The notes under the pieces were generated by a model that did no database searches, had not been told where the DNA came from, and worked only from the letters and a program-made list of their open reading frames with translations. From Holophagales bacterium (GTDB lineage: Bacteria; Acidobacteriota; Thermoanaerobaculia; Multivoradales; Multivoraceae): DNA of 64,000 nt. Positions 12,282-20,569 of this stretch are shown piece by piece. The stretch spans positions 513,037 through 577,036 of the forward strand of contig VXVC01000004.1 of assembly GCA_009836625.1 (NCBI GenBank), in the 5' to 3' direction. Both the position numbers and the translations under genes were made by a program. Position 1 is the stretch's first letter; every line of letters starts with the position of its first letter.

Positions 12282-15200
12282 ATGTCGACGGCCTCCTGCC
12301 CGTTGCGCCTGGCGGCGACAATCATCTTCCTCTGCGCAGCGCCCGGGATGGCTCAGGAGGCCAGCCCGGCGCCGGTAGACGAGCACGAACACGGCGAGGC
12401 GGACGGGGCCGACCACGCGCACGAGCACCACAGCCACGAGTTCGAGACCTTTAGCCACACGGTCACGGTCACCGGCTCCTGGATCCCCGGCACTCCCGAG
12501 GACGCGGCGCAGCCGGTTTCCGTCCTGTCGCGCGACGACCTGGAAGCGGAGGGTTCGCCCAGCGTGTTCGACCTCATCCGCAATCTCCCGTTCAGTCTCG
12601 GCGCGAACCTCGGCTCCGAGCAGTTCGGCGTGCGCGCCGGGGCGGACCGCTCGAGCCTGAACCTGCGTGGCCTCGGCGCGAGCCGCTCCCTCGTTCTCCT
12701 GAACGGCGATCGCCTGACCTGGTCGCCGGGAGCGATCCCCAACCAGGCGCAACTCATGGTCGACACGAACGTCCTGCCGATGGTCGCGGTCGAGCGGGTC
12801 GAGCTCCTGCGCGACGGCGGCGCGGCGACGTACGGCTCGGACGCGATCGCCGGCGTGATGAACGTGATCACCCGCAGCCACTTCGACGGCCTCTCGTTCG
12901 AGGGCAAGCACAGCATGATCGACGGTTCCAACGGCGACGGCGAGATCGGCCTGATCGCCGGCCGGCCCTTCGCGGCCGGCCGCGGCCATGCGGTCACTTC
13001 GCTCGGCCTCTCGCGGCGCGGCCCCATCCGCTTCCTCGACCGGCGCTGGGCGCTTGCGCCCTATGCCGACAACCCGCGCGGCGGCTGGTCGGGAACCGGC
13101 CGTCCGGCGACGTTCTATCCGCTCTCGGACGCTCCCGGAATCCGCGACCCGAACTGCGAGCGCGTCGGGGGCGCGGTCAGCAGCCCCGGCAGTCCGCTCT
13201 GCCGCTACCAGTACACGGCATTCGACAACATCGTGCAGGACACGCGCCGGGGGCAGTGGTTCACCGAGGCCTCCTGGGACACGGAGGGCGGCTGGCATCT
13301 TGGCGCCGAGTTCCTGCTCGCCCGCAGCGAAGTGCCGTCGTGGTTCACTTCGCCGTCCTATCCGCCGACCAGGGTCATGGACGCCAGCCGTTCGGTGCGG
13401 GCGAACAACCCGGGCCTGATCGACATGGCCAGGCTCTACCCTGAGGTCTACGGCCCCTACGCCGCCTGCAGCGCGCCCTACTGCCTGTGGCAGGGCGACG
13501 GCGCCGCGCAGGACGCTGCCGGCATCGACCCCGGCTGGCAGGAGGTGGCCTGGATTCGCGGCCGGACGTTCGGCCAGGAGGGACCGCTGCGCAGCTACTT
13601 CCGCGAGTCCGAGACCGAGCGGGTCGCCTTCGACCTCGAGGGAGTGACGGGCGAAACCCTGTGGGCCTTTCGCGCGTCGTGGTCGGCCGCGGAGCGGAAA
13701 CTCGAGGACGGCGATGTCCTGGACTACCGCCTCCGGCGCGCGCTGGCGGGACTCGGCGGCCTCGCCTGCGAGCAGCAGGTGCCGAACGAGCACGACGGTG
13801 GCGGCAACCTGAGCTTCTCGCTCGAAACGCTGCGCAGGCACGCCGGCCAGGGCGACTGCAGCTACTGGATCCCCTTCTCCAACTCGATCAGGCCCCATCC
13901 CGCCGTGCCCGGCGTCACGAACCCCGACTACGACCCGGCCTTCGACAACGGCCACCTGTTCGACTACCTGACGACGATCCTGGGGACGCGCGGCGAAACC
14001 ACCCTGCTCGTTCTGGAGGCCGTGGCCAGCGGTCTGCTGAACTGGTCGCTCTCCGGGGGGACGGCGGAGTACGCGGTCGGCGCCCAGTGGCGCGCCGAGA
14101 CCTACGAGCTGACGCCCTACTCGGTCGGCGTAGCTCCGCCCCGTGGCGGCGCCCTCCACGACATCGAGGTCTATCCCTGCCCGGGCGGCCCGGAGATCAC
14201 TTCCTGCGCCACTCCGGAGGGCCTGTTCGTCTATCTGCCGCCCGCCTTCTCGACCGAGGACGACCGCGGCATCGGGTCGGTGTTCGGCGAACTGTCGCTG
14301 CCTCTTCATTCCTCGCTCGACAGCCAGCTCTCGCTCCGGTTCGAGGACTACGGTGGGGACGTCGGATCGAGCCTCGATCCGAAGGTCGCGCTGCGCTGGC
14401 AGGCGACCGAAGCGCTAGCGCTGCGCGGTTCACTGGGGACCACGTTCCGTGGTCCGACGCTGAACCAGACGGTCTCCGGCATCGCCGAGACCTCGCGCGA
14501 GAACATCGGTCCCATCGGTACCGCGAAGCCGGTCCGTATCCACGGCGATCCCGCGCTCGATCCGGAGTCGGCGACGACGTTCAATGCCGGCCTGGTGGTC
14601 GAGCGAAGTGGTCTGGCCGGCGCCGGCAGCAGGCTCTTCGCCACGCTGGACTACTGGCGCTACGACTTCAGGGATCCCCTGGTCATCCAGCCCTTCAGCG
14701 CCCTGATCGGCCTCGCCTGCCCGCCCGTCGATCATCCCCTGTGCGATCCGGGCTCCCCCTGGTTCGACGCCCTGACGATCAGCGGCGGCGTACCGACGAT
14801 CGAGAATCTCGACGCCGTGTCGGTGCGGATCGTCAACGGGCCGGACATCGAGACCGACGGCATCGACTTCCGGGCCGACTTCGAGGCCGATGCGGGCCAG
14901 GGACGCCTCCGCCTGGGCGCATCGGCCACGTACGCGCTGTCCTGGCGGATCGACGGCTGGGAACTCGGCGAGGCGTACGACGCGAAGGGCCGGCTAAACT
15001 ACGACACCTCCCTGGCCCGGCCGCTCCCGGAGCTCAAGGGCCGCGTCTTCGCCGGCTACTCGCGCGGTCCCTTCACCGGCCGCTGGAAGCTGAACTACAC
15101 TGGCTCCTTCCTCCAGGACGCGCCGCCGCCGTGGGGCGAGGACTACCCGGTCGACGCCCACGCCACCCACGACATCCACGTCTCCTGGGCCCTGCCCGGC

Positions 15201-15341
15201 GACCGCACCACGCTCTTCGCCTCGATCCTCAACCTCGCCGACGAGGATCCACCGCTGATCTTCCGCCCGGCGAACTACGACGCCTCGACGCACGATCCCC
15301 TGGGCCGGGTCCTCAGCATCGGCGTGCGGTTCGAACTCTAG
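12282..15341 (+). CDS. TonB-dependent outer-membrane receptor, copy 1, with His-rich N-terminus
   Basis: 1019-aa outer-membrane receptor. A signal peptide (about residues 1-24, ending 'GMAQ') is followed by a His/Asp/Glu-rich linker ('DEHEHGEADGADHAHEHHSH'), then a TonB-box-like 'TVTVTGS', the plug domain ('LNLRGLGASRSLVLLNGDRL', 'VERVELLRDGGAATYGSDAIAGVMNVI') and a long beta-barrel ending in the hydrophobic 'LSIGVRFEL'. The barrel carries several paired cysteines in likely extracellular loops ('CSAPYC', 'CERVGGAVSSPGSPLC', 'CPGGPEITSC'). It takes up an unknown ligand with TonB energy; the His-rich stretch hints at metal binding but does not prove it. A close paralogue lies at 17498-20569. 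Confidence 0.93.
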   Translation: MSTASCPLRLAATIIFLCAAPGMAQEASPAPVDEHEHGEADGADHAHEHHSHEFETFSHTVTVTGSWIPGTPEDAAQPVSVLSRDDLEAEGSPSVFDLIRNLPFSLGANLGSEQFGVRAGADRSSLNLRGLGASRSLVLLNGDRLTWSPGAIPNQAQLMVDTNVLPMVAVERVELLRDGGAATYGSDAIAGVMNVITRSHFDGLSFEGKHSMIDGSNGDGEIGLIAGRPFAAGRGHAVTSLGLSRRGPIRFLDRRWALAPYADNPRGGWSGTGRPATFYPLSDAPGIRDPNCERVGGAVSSPGSPLCRYQYTAFDNIVQDTRRGQWFTEASWDTEGGWHLGAEFLLARSEVPSWFTSPSYPPTRVMDASRSVRANNPGLIDMARLYPEVYGPYAACSAPYCLWQGDGAAQDAAGIDPGWQEVAWIRGRTFGQEGPLRSYFRESETERVAFDLEGVTGETLWAFRASWSAAERKLEDGDVLDYRLRRALAGLGGLACEQQVPNEHDGGGNLSFSLETLRRHAGQGDCSYWIPFSNSIRPHPAVPGVTNPDYDPAFDNGHLFDYLTTILGTRGETTLLVLEAVASGLLNWSLSGGTAEYAVGAQWRAETYELTPYSVGVAPPRGGALHDIEVYPCPGGPEITSCATPEGLFVYLPPAFSTEDDRGIGSVFGELSLPLHSSLDSQLSLRFEDYGGDVGSSLDPKVALRWQATEALALRGSLGTTFRGPTLNQTVSGIAETSRENIGPIGTAKPVRIHGDPALDPESATTFNAGLVVERSGLAGAGSRLFATLDYWRYDFRDPLVIQPFSALIGLACPPVDHPLCDPGSPWFDALTISGGVPTIENLDAVSVRIVNGPDIETDGIDFRADFEADAGQGRLRLGASATYALSWRIDGWELGEAYDAKGRLNYDTSLARPLPELKGRVFAGYSRGPFTGRWKLNYTGSFLQDAPPPWGEDYPVDAHATHDIHVSWALPGDRTTLFASILNLADEDPPLIFRPANYDASTHDPLGRVLSIGVRFEL

Positions 15342-15356
15342 GACCGGGGTGCTTCC

Positions 15357-16655
15357 GTGAAGCTCACGAGCGAATCGACGGCGCGCGCTACACCATGGAT
15401 CGCGCGGTCCGCAGCTGCTCGGGTCCGGGCCGCGATTCTGGTTCTGTTCGTTCTCGGTGGACCGGCCGCGTCGGCGCAAAGCACCGTAAACGCGGCTTCG
15501 CTCCCCGCGCATCTCCGGCCAACGCTCGACGGCACCGCAACCCTGATCTACGACGCCTCACCTGGTCGCCGAGTGCAGCTGACAGTCCTTTCGGATCCGG
15601 CAGGCCTTGAAGCTACGAGGCTGACCCTGGAGACGACTGCGGAGGATCTGAAACCTCTCGTCACGGAGATCCGTGAGCTCGCGCTGCGCCGGCCACCTGC
15701 TTCTCTTGGTCGCATCGTCCGCCTGGGAGATCAACTGGGCGAACTTCTGCTCGCACCGGTCGCTGACCAGCTCGGGAGTGTCTCCCGGCTCGGCCTTTCC
15801 GCCAACGGACCGTTGAGCGACCTGGCGTTCGGCGTTGTTCGGGCACCGCGGTCGCTCGATCCTCAGGGCCGCTACCTGATCGAAGCGCGGACTCTCTGCT
15901 GGATCGACCCGGCCCTGGGCGACGGCAACGCCGCCGACCGCCCGGCGAGCGACAGGCCGGTTGCGCTGGCGATCGCCGACGCCGTGTACCGTCCACCGGC
16001 ACGGCCACTCGGCGCCTCCATGAGCGACGGCGGCATCTCCTGGCGCCAGCACGCCGCGCGCCGCAATCAGGCGGGCACGATCCGCGCGCTGGGCTTGCCG
16101 GTAGTGTCCCGGTTCGGTCAAGCCGCCTCACCCGCCATCTTCTGGGAGTCGGCCGAGAGCTACGCCGTCCGGTTGCTTCACCTGGCGGTTGAGGCGCAGA
16201 TCGACCCGGCCAACCCCGACCGTTCAGCCCTGCTGCTTTCCCCCGAGAGGTACGACGAGCAGGCCATTCCCGTAGGCACAGGCCAACTGGCGTCGAGACT
16301 CGCGCTCGAACGCGAATCGCTGGTCGTCCTCTCTGGTCTGGACACGGGGAACCACGGCATCGGTCCGGGACCGTTCGTCGAGGCCTTCGGCGCCGCGGGC
16401 GCGGGTTCGGTCGTCGCGTCACTCTGGCCGGTCGTCGACGAATCCACGACGCACCTGTTCGACGCGTTCTACGAGAAGCTCGCCGAGGGAGCGACGCCGG
16501 CCGGAGCACTCCGAGACGCACAGAGCAGGCTCCTGGCCGAGCCGCTTCGTTTCGAACAGGGCGAGGGCCGGGAGCCCGTGGAGTTCGATGCTTTGCATCC
16601 GTACCACTGGGCCGGCTACCGCGTTTATCGAGGTTCGGCAGCAACCTGCGGTTGA
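15357..16655 (+). CDS. Secreted CHAT-domain protein lacking catalytic His and Cys (pseudo-protease)
   Basis: 432-aa protein starting with GTG 15 bases after the TonB receptor. A signal peptide is visible (hydrophobic 'AAILVLFVLGGPAASA', about residues 27-42). The C-terminal half has the CHAT (caspase-like) signature 'VVASLWPVVDESTTHLFDAFYEKL' and the closing 'HPYHWAGYRVY'. The two catalytic positions are changed: the His motif (H-x-A-T-H-G) reads 'HLAVEA' with Glu279 instead of His, and the S-A-C-x-T-G motif reads 'SGLDTG' with Leu328 instead of Cys. It is therefore probably an inactive, binding-type CHAT fold in the periplasm or outside. No TPR repeats are present, unlike most CHAT proteins. 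Confidence 0.8.
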   Translation: MKLTSESTARATPWIARSAAARVRAAILVLFVLGGPAASAQSTVNAASLPAHLRPTLDGTATLIYDASPGRRVQLTVLSDPAGLEATRLTLETTAEDLKPLVTEIRELALRRPPASLGRIVRLGDQLGELLLAPVADQLGSVSRLGLSANGPLSDLAFGVVRAPRSLDPQGRYLIEARTLCWIDPALGDGNAADRPASDRPVALAIADAVYRPPARPLGASMSDGGISWRQHAARRNQAGTIRALGLPVVSRFGQAASPAIFWESAESYAVRLLHLAVEAQIDPANPDRSALLLSPERYDEQAIPVGTGQLASRLALERESLVVLSGLDTGNHGIGPGPFVEAFGAAGAGSVVASLWPVVDESTTHLFDAFYEKLAEGATPAGALRDAQSRLLAEPLRFEQGEGREPVEFDALHPYHWAGYRVYRGSAATCG

Positions 16656-16663
16656 GACAAGCG

Positions 16664-16669
16664 TAGAAT
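16664..16669 (+). promoter_or_regulatory. -10 hexamer TAGAAT, leaderless position
   Basis: TAGAAT ends 7 bases before the lipoprotein ATG, so transcription would begin at or next to the start codon. No good -35 is seen, and the upstream CHAT gene ends only 21 bases away, so read-through is also possible. Confidence 0.35.
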
Positions 16670-16676
16670 CCCCCGC

Positions 16677-17171
16677 ATGACACCTCGCTCCGACCGTTTC
16701 CGCCTTTGTGCCACCACTGCCGTTCTCCTTCTGGGCGTGTTGGCCCTCTCGGGCTGCGGCGAATCGTCGCCGCCCCCCGCGACGGCGGCCAGCGACGATC
16801 CAGTCGCCACGCTGCTCGCGCTGCCAATGGAGCGGCTGATCGCGTACGACGCGGAGATCGAACTGACCCCTGATCAGGAAGAGATCAAGCGCGCCGCTCT
16901 GACGCCGATTCCCGCCCCCTGCTGCAGCGACCGCTCGGCTTACACGTGCTGCTGCCAGTGCAACCTGGGTCGGGCCTGGTGGGGCCTGTCGAAGGTGCTC
17001 ATCACGGAGCACGGCCAGAGCGCGACCGAGGTCCAGGCCAACGTCGAACGCTGGATTCGGAACGTGCGCCCACAGGGTTTCGCTGGCGACTCCTGCTACA
17101 CGGGACGCTGCTCCACCGCGGCAAGGCACGACGGCTGCTCGGGCATGAACCCGAACCGCATCGTGAGCTGA
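16677..17171 (+). CDS. Cys-rich lipoprotein of unknown function
   Basis: 164 aa. The N-terminus is a lipoprotein signal peptide with lipobox 'LSGC' (Cys27), so the mature protein is lipid-anchored. A short linker rich in Pro and Ala follows. The C-terminal 80 residues hold eleven cysteines in clusters: 'APCCSD', 'TCCCQCNLGRAWWGLSKVL' and 'GDSCYTGRC...GCSGM'. The pattern resembles conserved Cys-rich exported proteins from environmental bacteria and loosely the PCYCGC-type proteins; a metal-binding or redox role is plausible but unproven. It sits between the two TonB receptors, 13 bases before the VapB-like gene. Confidence 0.75.
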   Translation: MTPRSDRFRLCATTAVLLLGVLALSGCGESSPPPATAASDDPVATLLALPMERLIAYDAEIELTPDQEEIKRAALTPIPAPCCSDRSAYTCCCQCNLGRAWWGLSKVLITEHGQSATEVQANVERWIRNVRPQGFAGDSCYTGRCSTAARHDGCSGMNPNRIVS

Positions 17172-17184
17172 TCGCCGAGTTCGC

Positions 17185-17448
17185 ATGAAGATCACCGTCG
17201 AGCTTCACGATGAGTTGCTCGAGCAGGCACAGGCGGTGGCCGAAAGAGAGGGTACGACTCTCCGCAGCCTGGTCGAGGAAGGCCTGCAGCGTAGCCTGGA
17301 AGCACGCCGGAAAGCGGCACAACGGCATCTGGACTTTCCGAGCTACGGGGGCAGCGGATTGACGACCGAGTTCCGGGGTGCGCCGTGGAATCGGATTCGA
17401 GCCGAGGCCTACCGCGGGCACGGCGCGTGCTCGCCATCGCCACGATGA
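17185..17448 (+). CDS. VapB-type antitoxin, apparently without toxin
   Basis: 87-aa protein matching the VapB family of type II toxin-antitoxin systems. The N-terminal DNA-binding part is 'MKITVELHDELLEQAQAVAEREGTTLRSLVEEGL' and the C-terminal toxin-binding part is 'GGSGLTTEF...WNRIRAEAYRGHGA'. In the usual system a PIN-domain VapC begins at or just after this tail. Here the frame runs on for a few non-family residues (CSPSPR) and the next gene is a TonB receptor, so the toxin is missing. It could still act as a DNA-binding regulator of this locus. Confidence 0.8.
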   Translation: MKITVELHDELLEQAQAVAEREGTTLRSLVEEGLQRSLEARRKAAQRHLDFPSYGGSGLTTEFRGAPWNRIRAEAYRGHGACSPSPR

Positions 17449-17462
17449 CCCTCGCCGGTTGA
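17427..17462 (+). pseudogene. Possible vestige of a vapC toxin start (12 codons)
   Basis: A GTG codon overlapping the end of the antitoxin gene in the +2 register begins 'VLAIATMTLAG' and then a stop. VapC proteins paired with this VapB type commonly begin like 'M-x-A-[IV]-D-T-N', so 'VLAIATM' may be the remnant of a deleted toxin whose key Asp and Asn were changed. The stretch is very short and chance similarity is possible. Confidence 0.3.
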
Positions 17463-17497
17463 GCCGCCACCGGCCGTTCAGCGTCAGGCGAGAAGCT

Positions 17498-20400
17498 ATG
17501 TCGGCCGTCCTCCGCTCCACCTCCCGGCGAGCGCTCATCGTGTCGGCGGCGGCCGTCCTCCTGGCGTCCGGGGCCATTGCCCAGGAGACCGATGACGACC
17601 ACGCGGACGAGCACGAACACGCGGGCGCGGGGGAGGCCGGGCACGACCAGGAACACCACACGCACGAAGTCGAGACCTTCAGCCACACGGTGACCGTCAC
17701 CGGCTCCTGGATTCCGGGCACCCCCGAGGACGCCGCGCAGCCCGTCTCCGTTGTGTCTCGCGACGACTTGGAGGCGGAAGGCTCGCCCAGCATGCTCGGC
17801 GTCATCCGCAACCTCTCGTTCAGCCTCGGTGCCGACCTCGAGTCCGACCAGTTCGGCGCGCGCACGAACGAGGACCGCTCGACGCTCAACCTGCGCGGCC
17901 TTGGACCGAGCCGATCCCTGGTGCTGCTCAACGGCGACCGCCTGACCTGGTCTCCAGGCGCCATCCCGGACCAGGCGCAGCTCATCGTCGACACGAGCGT
18001 GCTGCCCATGGTCGCGGTCGAGCAGGTCGAGTTCCTGCGTGACGGCGGCGCCGCGACCTACGGCTCCGACGCCATCGCCGGCGTGATGAACGTGATCACC
18101 CGGAGCCACTTCGACGGTCTGTCCTTCGAGGGCAAGCACAGCGTGATCGACGGTTCGAACGGCGACGGCGAGGTCGGCCTCATTGGCGGCGGACCGTTCG
18201 GCGGAGGACGGGGTCATGCCGCCAGTTCCCTCGGTCTTTCGCGGCGGAGTCCGATCCGGCTCCGCGACCGCGACTGGGCCGTTCGGCCCTACGCCGACAA
18301 TCCCCGGGGGGGCTGGTCGGGGACCGGCCGGCCGGCTGTGTTCTACCCGCTCTCGGGCGCGCCAGCGATCCGCGACCCGAACTGCGAGCGCGTCGGGGGC
18401 GCGGTCAGCAGCCCCGACAGCCCTCTCTGCCGCGTCCAGTACACGCCGTTCGACAACTTGGTGCAGGACACGCGCCGTGGTCAGTGGTTCACCGAAGCCT
18501 CGTGGGACACGGAGGGCGGCTGGCACATCGGCGCCGAGGTCCTGTTCGCCAGGGGCGACGTGCCTTCCTGGCAGACCTCGCCGGGCTATCCGCCGAACAA
18601 GGTCGTCGATCTCACCCGTTCCGTGCGGGCGAACAACCCGGGGCTGGTCGACATGGCACGGCTCTACCCGGATCTGTACGGCGCCTACGCCTTCTGCGAC
18701 GCCCCCTGGTGCGGCTGGCAGGGAGACGGCGGCGCCCAGGACGCGGCGGGAATCGACCCGGCCTGGCAGGAAGTGGCGTGGATTCGAGGCAGGATGTTCG
18801 GCCAGGAAGGTCCCCTGCGCAGCCACATCCGCGAGTCCGACACGGAACGGTTCGCGTTCGACCTCGAAGGGGTGACCGGCGAGACCCTCTGGGCGTTCCG
18901 CACCTCCTGGTCGAGCGCCGATCGCAGGTTCGAGGACGGCGACGCCCTGCACTACCGCGCCCGGCGCGCGCTGGCCGGTCTCGGCGGCCTTGCCTGCGAG
19001 CAACAGGCGCCGAACGAGTACGACAAGGGCGGCAATCTGAGCTTCTCCCTGGACACCCTGCGCCGGTACGCGGGGCAGGGCAACTGCCGCTACTGGATCC
19101 CGTTCTCCAACTCCATCAGGCCCCATCCCCTGGTACCGAACGCCTCGAACCCCGACTACGATCCGGCGTTCGACAACGGTCCCCTGCACGACTACCTGAC
19201 GACGATCCTCGGCAGCCGGGGCGAGACGTCGCTGCTCGTCGTCGAAGCGGTGGCGAGCGGCCTGCTGGACTGGAGTCTCCCCGGCGGCGCGGCGGAGTAC
19301 GCGGCCGGAGTCCAATGGCGCGGCGAAACGTACGAACTGAATCCGTACACCGTCGGCGCGCCGACACCGCGAGGCGGCGCCCTGCACGACATCGCGATCT
19401 ACCCCTGCCCGGGCGGGCCGGACGTCACATCGTGCGAGAAGCGCGAGGGCGTGTTCGCCTACCTGCCGCCCGTCTTCCCGATCGAGGACGATCGCGGCAT
19501 CGGATCCGTGTTCGGCGAACTCTCGCTGCCGCTCGCCCCCTCGGTCGAAAGCCAGGTGTCGCTCCGCTTCGAGGACTACGGCGGCGACGTCGGCTCGAGT
19601 CTCGACCCCAAGTTGGCCCTGCGCTGGCAGGCCACGGACGCGCTGGCCCTGCGCGGCTCCTTCGGCACCACGTTCCGCGGGCCGACACTGAACCAGACGA
19701 TCGATGGAATTGCCGACACCTCGCGGTTCTTCATCGGCCGCATCGGCACGTTCAAACCGATCCACATTCACGGCGACCCGGCGCTCGACCCGGAGTCGGC
19801 CACGACGCTCAACACGGGCCTGGTGTTCGAGCGCAGCGGCCTCGGCGGCGGCAGCGGCCGCGTCTTCGCCACCATCGACTACTGGCGCTACGACTTCACC
19901 GACCCGCTCGTCATCCAGCCCTTCAACTCCATTCTCGGCCTCGCCTGCCCGCCCGCGAACCATCCGCTGTGCGACGAGGCTTCCCCCTGGTTCGACGGGC
20001 TGACCATCAGCGGCGGCGTCCCCAGCCTCGAGAACCTCGACACGCTCGCCGTACGGATCGTCAACGGCCCGGGCATCGAGACCGACGGCATCGACTTCCG
20101 CGCCGACCTCCAGAGAAACGCGGGCCCGGGACGTCTGACCCTGGGCGTCTCAGGCACAACCACCCTGTCCTGGCGCATTGACGGCTGGGAACTCGGCGAC
20201 CCCTACGACGCGAAGGGAAGGCTGAACTACGACACCTCCCTCGCCCGCGCCCTGCCGGAGTTCAAGGGCCGTCTCTTCGCCGGCTACACGTTCGGCCCCT
20301 TTACCGGCCGCTGGCACCTGAACTACACCGATTCCTATGTCCACGACGCCCCCGCCCCCTGGGGCGACAACTACCCCATCGACGCCTTCGCCACCCACGA

Positions 20401-20569
20401 CCTCCACGTCTCCTGGTCCATCCCGGGCGACCGCGCCACCCTCTTCGCCTCGATCCTCAATCTCGGCGACCAGGATCCACCCCGCGTCTTCCGCCAAATC
20501 AACTACGACCCCTCGACCCACAACCCCCTGGGCCGGATCCTCAGCATCGGCTTGCGGTTGGAGTTGTAG
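17498..20569 (+). CDS. TonB-dependent outer-membrane receptor, copy 2, with His-rich N-terminus
   Basis: 1023-aa paralogue of the receptor at 12282, colinear over its whole length with most residues identical by eye. Signal peptide 'VSAAAVLLASGAIAQ' is followed by its own His-rich acidic linker ('DDDHADEHEHAGAG', 'HDQEHHTHE'), the same 'TVTVTGSWIPGTPEDAAQPV' TonB box/plug start, plug and barrel, ending 'LSIGLRLEL'. The paired loop cysteines are conserved. Loops differ most, for example 'YAFCDAPWCGWQG' against 'YAACSAPYCLWQG', as expected for diverging ligand specificity. The ATG at 17498 is chosen over the ORF-track start because it directly precedes the signal peptide. It is last in the plus-strand run from 12282. 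Confidence 0.93.
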   Translation: MSAVLRSTSRRALIVSAAAVLLASGAIAQETDDDHADEHEHAGAGEAGHDQEHHTHEVETFSHTVTVTGSWIPGTPEDAAQPVSVVSRDDLEAEGSPSMLGVIRNLSFSLGADLESDQFGARTNEDRSTLNLRGLGPSRSLVLLNGDRLTWSPGAIPDQAQLIVDTSVLPMVAVEQVEFLRDGGAATYGSDAIAGVMNVITRSHFDGLSFEGKHSVIDGSNGDGEVGLIGGGPFGGGRGHAASSLGLSRRSPIRLRDRDWAVRPYADNPRGGWSGTGRPAVFYPLSGAPAIRDPNCERVGGAVSSPDSPLCRVQYTPFDNLVQDTRRGQWFTEASWDTEGGWHIGAEVLFARGDVPSWQTSPGYPPNKVVDLTRSVRANNPGLVDMARLYPDLYGAYAFCDAPWCGWQGDGGAQDAAGIDPAWQEVAWIRGRMFGQEGPLRSHIRESDTERFAFDLEGVTGETLWAFRTSWSSADRRFEDGDALHYRARRALAGLGGLACEQQAPNEYDKGGNLSFSLDTLRRYAGQGNCRYWIPFSNSIRPHPLVPNASNPDYDPAFDNGPLHDYLTTILGSRGETSLLVVEAVASGLLDWSLPGGAAEYAAGVQWRGETYELNPYTVGAPTPRGGALHDIAIYPCPGGPDVTSCEKREGVFAYLPPVFPIEDDRGIGSVFGELSLPLAPSVESQVSLRFEDYGGDVGSSLDPKLALRWQATDALALRGSFGTTFRGPTLNQTIDGIADTSRFFIGRIGTFKPIHIHGDPALDPESATTLNTGLVFERSGLGGGSGRVFATIDYWRYDFTDPLVIQPFNSILGLACPPANHPLCDEASPWFDGLTISGGVPSLENLDTLAVRIVNGPGIETDGIDFRADLQRNAGPGRLTLGVSGTTTLSWRIDGWELGDPYDAKGRLNYDTSLARALPEFKGRLFAGYTFGPFTGRWHLNYTDSYVHDAPAPWGDNYPIDAFATHDLHVSWSIPGDRATLFASILNLGDQDPPRVFRQINYDPSTHNPLGRILSIGLRLEL

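Follow-up and report, generated by a model that had tools for sequence, protein, structure and literature searches.

Five closely spaced genes in a Holophagales bacterium place two paralogous TonB-dependent receptors around a CHAT-fold protein, a cysteine-rich lipoprotein and an antitoxin, and raise the question of whether this grouping is a functional unit and what its cargo might be. The genes lie in a window of 64,000 nucleotides (assembly GCA_009836625.1, contig VXVC01000004.1, positions 513,037 to 577,036), from whose first letter all coordinates in the list below are counted. An earlier note, made from the letters of the window alone, had suggested a metal- or peptide-handling surface system. 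The host genome, of 4.3 Mb, was compared with those of 20 further members of its genus (21 in all; Acidobacteriota, Thermoanaerobaculia), which to judge from the record and isolate names is probably sponge-associated. The lipoprotein, hereafter CysLP, is a member of an unnamed, undescribed bacterial family that is enriched beside Cus-type (HME-RND) efflux pumps elsewhere, and our tentative reading is that the locus forms a metal-handling patch of the outer membrane, peculiar to the genus and assembled around this older, metal-linked protein. Its features are as follows.

12282..15341, plus strand: TBDT1, a TonB-dependent receptor of 1019 aa (Pfam Plug E 2.7e-17, barrel E 4.9e-31)
12378..12440, plus strand: His/Asp/Glu-rich stretch of TBDT1, residues 33-53, with 7 His (direct reading)
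15357..16655, plus strand: exported pseudo-CHAT protein of 432 aa with a GTG start and a signal peptide (Pfam CHAT E 9.5e-34)
16191..16193, plus strand: codon of Glu279, which replaces the CHAT catalytic His (LLHLAVEA versus xxHFAxHA/G; alignment of 20 orthologues and 8 TPR-CHAT relatives)
16338..16340, plus strand: codon of Leu328, which replaces the CHAT catalytic Cys (LSGLDT versus LSAC.T; alignment)
16677..17171, plus strand: CysLP, an exported cysteine-rich lipoprotein of 164 aa with lipobox LSGC27, in no Pfam, NCBIfam or PDB sequence family
16920..17147, plus strand: conserved domain of CysLP, CC-x7-CCC-x-CN ... WG ... W ... C-x4-C ... GC-G/S-GM (57-row alignment)
17185..17448, plus strand: VapB-type antitoxin of 87 aa with no adjacent toxin gene (Pfam VapB_antitoxin E 3.2e-05)
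17498..20569, plus strand: TBDT2, a paralogue of TBDT1, 1023 aa (Pfam Plug E 1.7e-15, barrel E 3.6e-31)
17591..17668, plus strand: His/Asp/Glu-rich stretch of TBDT2, residues 32-57, with 7 His (direct reading)

The close spacing on one strand described in the earlier note is real, the intergenic gaps measuring 15, 21, 13 and 49 bp in order from TBDT1 to TBDT2 (13-49 bp, against 13-50 in the note). Ratios of nonsynonymous to synonymous substitution (dN/dS) of 0.11-0.37 indicate purifying selection on all four genes tested, which are those of TBDT1, TBDT2, the CHAT protein and CysLP.

The CysLP family

The C-terminal domain of CysLP holds nine cysteines (82, 83, 91-93, 95, 140, 145 and 154), and a further two lie in the signal peptide (Cys11) and the lipobox (Cys27); the eleven that had been assigned to the C-terminal part are the count for the whole protein. 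No Pfam or NCBIfam model matches CysLP at useful significance, no Pfam family was hit by two or more of the 20 family members searched, and comparison of the family with PDB chains by sequence gave nothing at E <0.05. The predicted structure is confident in its core, with predicted local distance difference test scores (pLDDT) per block of 92-99 from residue 41 onward (core 97) and a predicted template modelling score of 0.74. A Foldseek search of this model against the PDB returned nothing under E 0.001 (best probability 0.07), and the predicted fold is likely absent from the PDB, with some doubt left by the small size of the domain.

A degenerate-motif scan of genome contigs yielded 71 loci of the family. 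Most are in Acidobacteriota, and the rest are in records whose labels name some ten other phyla (Binatota, Krumholzibacteriota, Deltaproteobacteria, Dadabacteria, Nitrospinota, Elusimicrobia, Spirochaetia, Actinomycetes, Candidatus Didemnitutus and one archaeal bin), labels that come from metagenome bins and may in some cases be wrong. An even draw of 396 Acidobacteriota genomes yielded a member in 24, of which 14 belong to the genus of the window. Across an alignment of 57 members Cys82, 83, 95, 140, 145 and 154 are invariant and Cys91-93 are present in at least 90%, while Trp102, Gly103, Trp126 and the closing G-x-GM motif vary little or not at all. A simple lipobox-like pattern picks out 17 of the 57 as lipoproteins, and the other N-termini resemble signals of the Sec or Tat kind or membrane anchors; from these sequences the domain seems always to be exported.

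Association with metal efflux genes

The link of CysLP to metals is positional. Of 53 CysLP loci beyond the genus, 7, drawn from several lineages, have the HME-RND signature DA[LI]PD.S..QV within 6 kb. At an eighth (L115), the last part of an apparently similar pump lies directly upstream. The expected number of signature-bearing loci is about 0.2-0.5 in the 617 kb concerned, giving a P of about 1e-6 to 1e-9, a post hoc figure that applies one background across phyla (very roughly 1.5-2 pumps per ~4 Mb genome in the phylum, estimated from the matches listed over the cut-off) to loci that are partly non-independent. CysLP relatives lie in or beside Cus-type operons at L067/L121, L068, L126, L130, L131, L136, L138, L234 and L235. 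At three of these, L068, L234 and L235, which were reached separately, the arrangement of a CusB with a heavy-metal-binding domain and a CusA is repeated, with CysLP downstream of the two in L068 and L234 and divergent nearby in L235. Clusters of two or three CysLP paralogues are found beside or downstream of Cus genes at L067 (genome G079), L068 (G085), L134 and L136.

Neighbours of CysLP elsewhere, called by a home-made gene caller with the CysLP region masked so that small genes may be missed, include CusB with the heavy-metal-binding domain, CusC-like genes, a DUF3347-like gene and a metal P-type ATPase, the last followed at L101 by a CDF-like gene. FeoA/FeoB genes lie near CysLP at L113 and L141, and COX2-like genes at L114 and L129. 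In Bryobacterales (L116-L119, L124, L125 and L133) CysLP has a short-chain dehydrogenase gene on one side and a major-facilitator transporter gene on the other, and no neighbour was recognised as a metal gene. Within the genus of the window no Cus gene lies beside CysLP.

Two TonB-dependent receptors with histidine-rich tails

Both receptors match the plug (PF07715) and barrel (PF00593) families above cut-off, and TBDT1 comprises a signal peptide, the His/Asp/Glu stretch, a TonB-box-like TVTVTG, plug, barrel and five loop-cysteine pairs. That they are paralogues with like tails, flanking the CHAT, CysLP and antitoxin genes, is borne out by their 77-78% identity and by the 7 His in each tail. 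TBDT1 orthologues are 89-95% identical across 14 full-length genus copies, and receptor dN/dS is 0.11-0.19. In the receptor tree TBDT1 and TBDT2 fall on opposite sides of one branch (support 88/95), so that the duplication came before the divergence of the genomes in which both are found; the same branch gives no sign of gene conversion between the paralogues. Mature TBDT2 orthologues are >84% identical and their signal peptides (L031-L049) are highly divergent, which suggests recombination at the 5′ end of TBDT2.

Receptors of this type (E 1e-60 or better) are present in 17 of the 21 genus genomes, being absent from G011, G012, G015 and G019, and among the 99 relatives searched none outside the genus reached that threshold; in the wider draw of 396 Acidobacteriota genomes a single outside genus reached E 1e-80, at 36% identity. 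G016 keeps TBDT2 and lacks TBDT1, and since its copy nests within the TBDT2 group, a loss of TBDT1 in that genome is probable.

Between signal peptide and TonB box the tail packs 3-8 His and 7-11 acidic residues into 16-30 residues, a composition that is kept despite sequence drift in the 13 TBDT1 and 15 TBDT2 orthologues read. Among 30 TonB receptors inspected in the host genome, only TBDT1, TBDT2 and a distant paralogue, L155 (G000:C10:330221), have a His/Asp/Glu tail. The L155 tail preceding the TonB box is extremely acidic and has 5 His; a genus orthologue in G017 (L191:5682-8864) has retained the acidity and not the histidines. The paired loop cysteines reported for both receptors amount to five pairs, and all ten cysteines are invariant in the 26 full-length genus receptors aligned. 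Six of the ten are common to outside receptors at 32-34% identity.

The plug is closest by sequence to colicin I, B12 and enterobactin receptors without reaching a specific family. The best scores against B12 and siderophore NCBIfam equivalog or subfamily models are 54-87 bits versus cut-offs of 493-927, and the SusC signature reaches only E 0.02-0.07, far under its cut-off. No SusD-like lipoprotein lies beside the receptors, CysLP having no Pfam match and the stretch holding no other lipoprotein. The earlier observation that the locus differs from SusCD, siderophore and B12 loci stands. A structure prediction for the receptor was discarded at a mean pLDDT of 39.

A CHAT protein without its catalytic dyad

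The CHAT match spans 301 residues (E 9.5e-34), and the name pseudo-CHAT is apt, as both residues of the catalytic His-Cys dyad are replaced, His by Glu279 and Cys by Leu328, in all 21 genus proteins aligned. The same two positions are intact in all eight relatives aligned. An orthologue is present in each of the 21 genus genomes, where it is the sole strong match, and none was found in the genomes searched outside the genus. The closest homologues elsewhere are TPR-CHAT proteins of Thermoanaerobaculia, which are often multi-copy per genome and share the domain at 29-43% identity; those compared are parts of large open frames of ~1000-1200 codons and have an intact dyad, whereas the CHAT protein of the window is short and dead. 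Constraint on it (dN/dS 0.27-0.37) is weaker than on the receptors. A binding or scaffold function would be the simplest role for a retained dead enzyme, and is our guess for this one.

Does the grouping hold across genomes?

The CHAT gene is followed by CysLP in the same order in 20 of 20 other genus genomes, inserted toxin-antitoxin genes aside, and the pair is flanked by enoyl-CoA hydratase and acyl-CoA dehydrogenase genes wherever the contig extends that far. The order of RecQ, GST and PrfC is also conserved in the genus. Adjacency within the genus was accordingly rejected as proof of function: unrelated flanking housekeeping genes are equally syntenic, so that the CHAT-CysLP neighbourhood says little, and toxin-antitoxin modules split the pair in 10 of 20 loci. 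Outside the genus, such receptors are found beside CysLP at 0 of 53 loci in named genomes.

The idea of one conserved five-gene system is not supported by these comparisons, since CysLP homologues outside the genus never adjoin such receptors, the CHAT protein has no orthologue there, the receptors are missing from 4 of the 21 genus genomes and the antitoxin is variable. The five-gene unit is a local assembly of one genus and at most a putative functional unit.

A proposed function and its alternatives

Under the metal-handling reading, CysLP would be an exported, lipid-anchored thiol protein and a putative soft-metal binder (copper or silver first, with others possible), its ligands being the conserved CC/CCC/C...C...C...C set, and in other lineages the family would serve as periplasmic metal binders or chaperones beside Cus-type efflux pumps. 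In the genus of the window CysLP would have become tied to the outer membrane and come to adjoin the secreted dead CHAT protein, which may act as a binding or scaffold protein, and the two receptors would have been acquired later, around the CHAT-CysLP pair. Their periplasmic His/Asp/Glu tails might take hold of incoming metal, or a complex of it, where the barrel opens inward and relay it, and TBDT1, TBDT2, the CHAT protein and CysLP would presumably interact. The parts of this proposal differ in strength. Binding of a soft metal by CysLP within the envelope is slightly favoured; import of a metal complex by the receptors, with transfer by way of their tails, is plausible but less likely than not. 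The gene content, the dead active site, the distribution of the family, the Cus linkage elsewhere and the conserved tails and cysteines are observed, whereas metal binding, a metal substrate and the interaction of the proteins are inferred. The reading is favoured by the Cus linkage, by the conserved cysteines and export signals of CysLP, by the rare and conserved tails and by the purifying selection on both receptors, the CHAT protein and CysLP.

Several observations weigh against this reading, in addition to the limits on the enrichment figure given above. No metal gene lies within the five-gene stretch, and the Cus-type pumps of the host genome are encoded elsewhere (C3:71569 and C4:52389). 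The Cus-type signature is missing at 46 of the 53 CysLP loci outside the genus, and, apart from the loci named above for metal-related neighbours, most show no metal gene. The CHAT-CysLP pair is kept without any such receptor in 4 of 21 genus genomes. The cysteines of CysLP could be structural disulphides, and the six loop cysteines that the receptors share with outsiders at 32-34% identity mark a receptor type rather than a metal site.

The alternative that survives best is that the receptors import a non-metal cargo, such as a peptide, a glycan fragment or another sponge-derived molecule, and that the CHAT protein and CysLP are merely old syntenic neighbours. This is a real possibility, which gains from the equally conserved order of RecQ, GST, enoyl-CoA hydratase, acyl-CoA dehydrogenase and PrfC, with adjacency uninformative as a result, from the absence of the receptors in four genomes and of any counterpart beside CysLP elsewhere, and from a plug nearest to colicin I, B12 and enterobactin receptors that belongs to no specific family. 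Against it stand tails that are rare in the genome and yet kept in both paralogues throughout the genus, and the short gaps on a single strand, which suggest that the genes are co-transcribed.

A second alternative would make CysLP a disulphide-rich structural or redox protein, active in thiol-disulphide exchange or envelope stress, whose proximity to pumps would reflect a need for oxidative folding. The protein is exported and has many cysteines, and at two loci labelled Actinomycetes (L139 and L140) it lies beside TlpA-like and CcdA/DsbD-like genes. However, the CC and CCC runs are atypical of disulphide proteins and reminiscent of metal-thiolate sites, and the Cus link is commoner than the thioredoxin link among the loci examined, so that we regard this explanation as improbable. 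Pseudo-proteases can serve as binders, and the exported, protease-fold CHAT protein might thus be the substrate-binding part of a surface complex in which the receptors and lipoprotein capture peptides or proteins, but genomes that lack the receptors have the CHAT orthologue too and the locus has no peptide transporter or active protease, which leaves this the least probable of the explanations weighed. Of the earlier guess at metals or peptides, the metal half gains from the enrichment of the CysLP family beside Cus-type pumps and from the rare, conserved tails, and the peptide half found nothing beyond the dead CHAT fold.

The metal-handling reading has a bolder form, in which CysLP is the first of a new family of metal chaperones, exported and rich in thiols, whose fold is missing from the PDB, partnered with Cus pumps in several phyla and re-used here with a dead CHAT protein and His-tailed receptors for metal acquisition at the outer membrane; taken whole, this seems rather unlikely. 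CysLP would be a widespread, unnamed family with a strict cysteine pattern, a predicted fold unmatched among solved structures and a positional link to copper/silver efflux, and knowing what it binds would bring a new part into the picture of metal homeostasis in the envelope of little-studied phyla. At this locus, such a protein would be joined with TonB receptors in a lineage of probable sponge symbionts, a setting in which the supply and toxicity of metals are of interest.

Comparison with known metal-handling systems

CysLP resembles the accessory proteins of Cus systems in being small, exported and metal-linked by position, but it is cysteine-rich and has no Pfam match, hence none to CusF or another described accessory. 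TBDT1 and TBDT2 share with metal-importing TonB receptors (OprC, ZnuD and the partner of ZepA) a plug-barrel architecture, metal-type residues and exported partner proteins encoded nearby; the His-rich part is here a short periplasmic N-terminal tail, and the zinc receptor ZnuD was set beside the two by description only. OprC takes up copper by way of a CxxxM-HxM site (PMC11836926, PMC8610252). Neither receptor has a CxxxM and a single HxM occurs, in TBDT1 only; with the site absent, both were rejected as OprC-type copper receptors. A TonB receptor has been proposed as partner of the zinc exoprotein ZepA, whose N-terminal His and acidic residues have been compared with the flexible, His-rich N-terminal regions of ZnuA and ZinT (PMC10957091). 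By description ZepA is of a different protein family, and the likeness of the loci is an analogy at most.

Toxin-antitoxin insertions and minor observations

The antitoxin of the window is a borderline VapB_antitoxin match (24.2 bits versus a cut-off of 23.4). No PIN toxin gene adjoins it and VapBC pairing is absent, so it was rightly called a lone antitoxin. Its type recurs in one other genus genome (L047), also without a PIN gene, and differs from the complete modules of a FitA-like RHH antitoxin and a PIN toxin that separate CHAT from CysLP at 10 of the 20 genus loci (L031, L032, L039, L041, L043, L044, L046, L047, L048 and L049). The same gap in L040 holds a 124-residue reading frame with no family match, unrelated to these modules. 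The CHAT-CysLP gap is a variable insertion point, and the antitoxin of the window is probably an accessory passenger, a remnant that is not part of the metal patch.

The PCYCGC family (PF13798) was considered as a relative of CysLP, being likewise exported and cysteine-rich with a helix, cysteine patch and helix in that order; it was rejected, as hmmscan gave no match at E 1, profile-profile comparison gave a probability of 3% and CysLP has no PCYCGC...GHxS motif. A gene of that family lies ~2.4 kb from an HME-RND pump gene at G185:C1:389173-393978, as CysLP relatives do elsewhere. PCYCGC proteins at L194 and L195 (genomes G137 and G170; minus strand, about locus position 1630) contain an in-frame TGA, which falls at the cysteine of the HGxxC motif of L193, making selenocysteine possible at that position.

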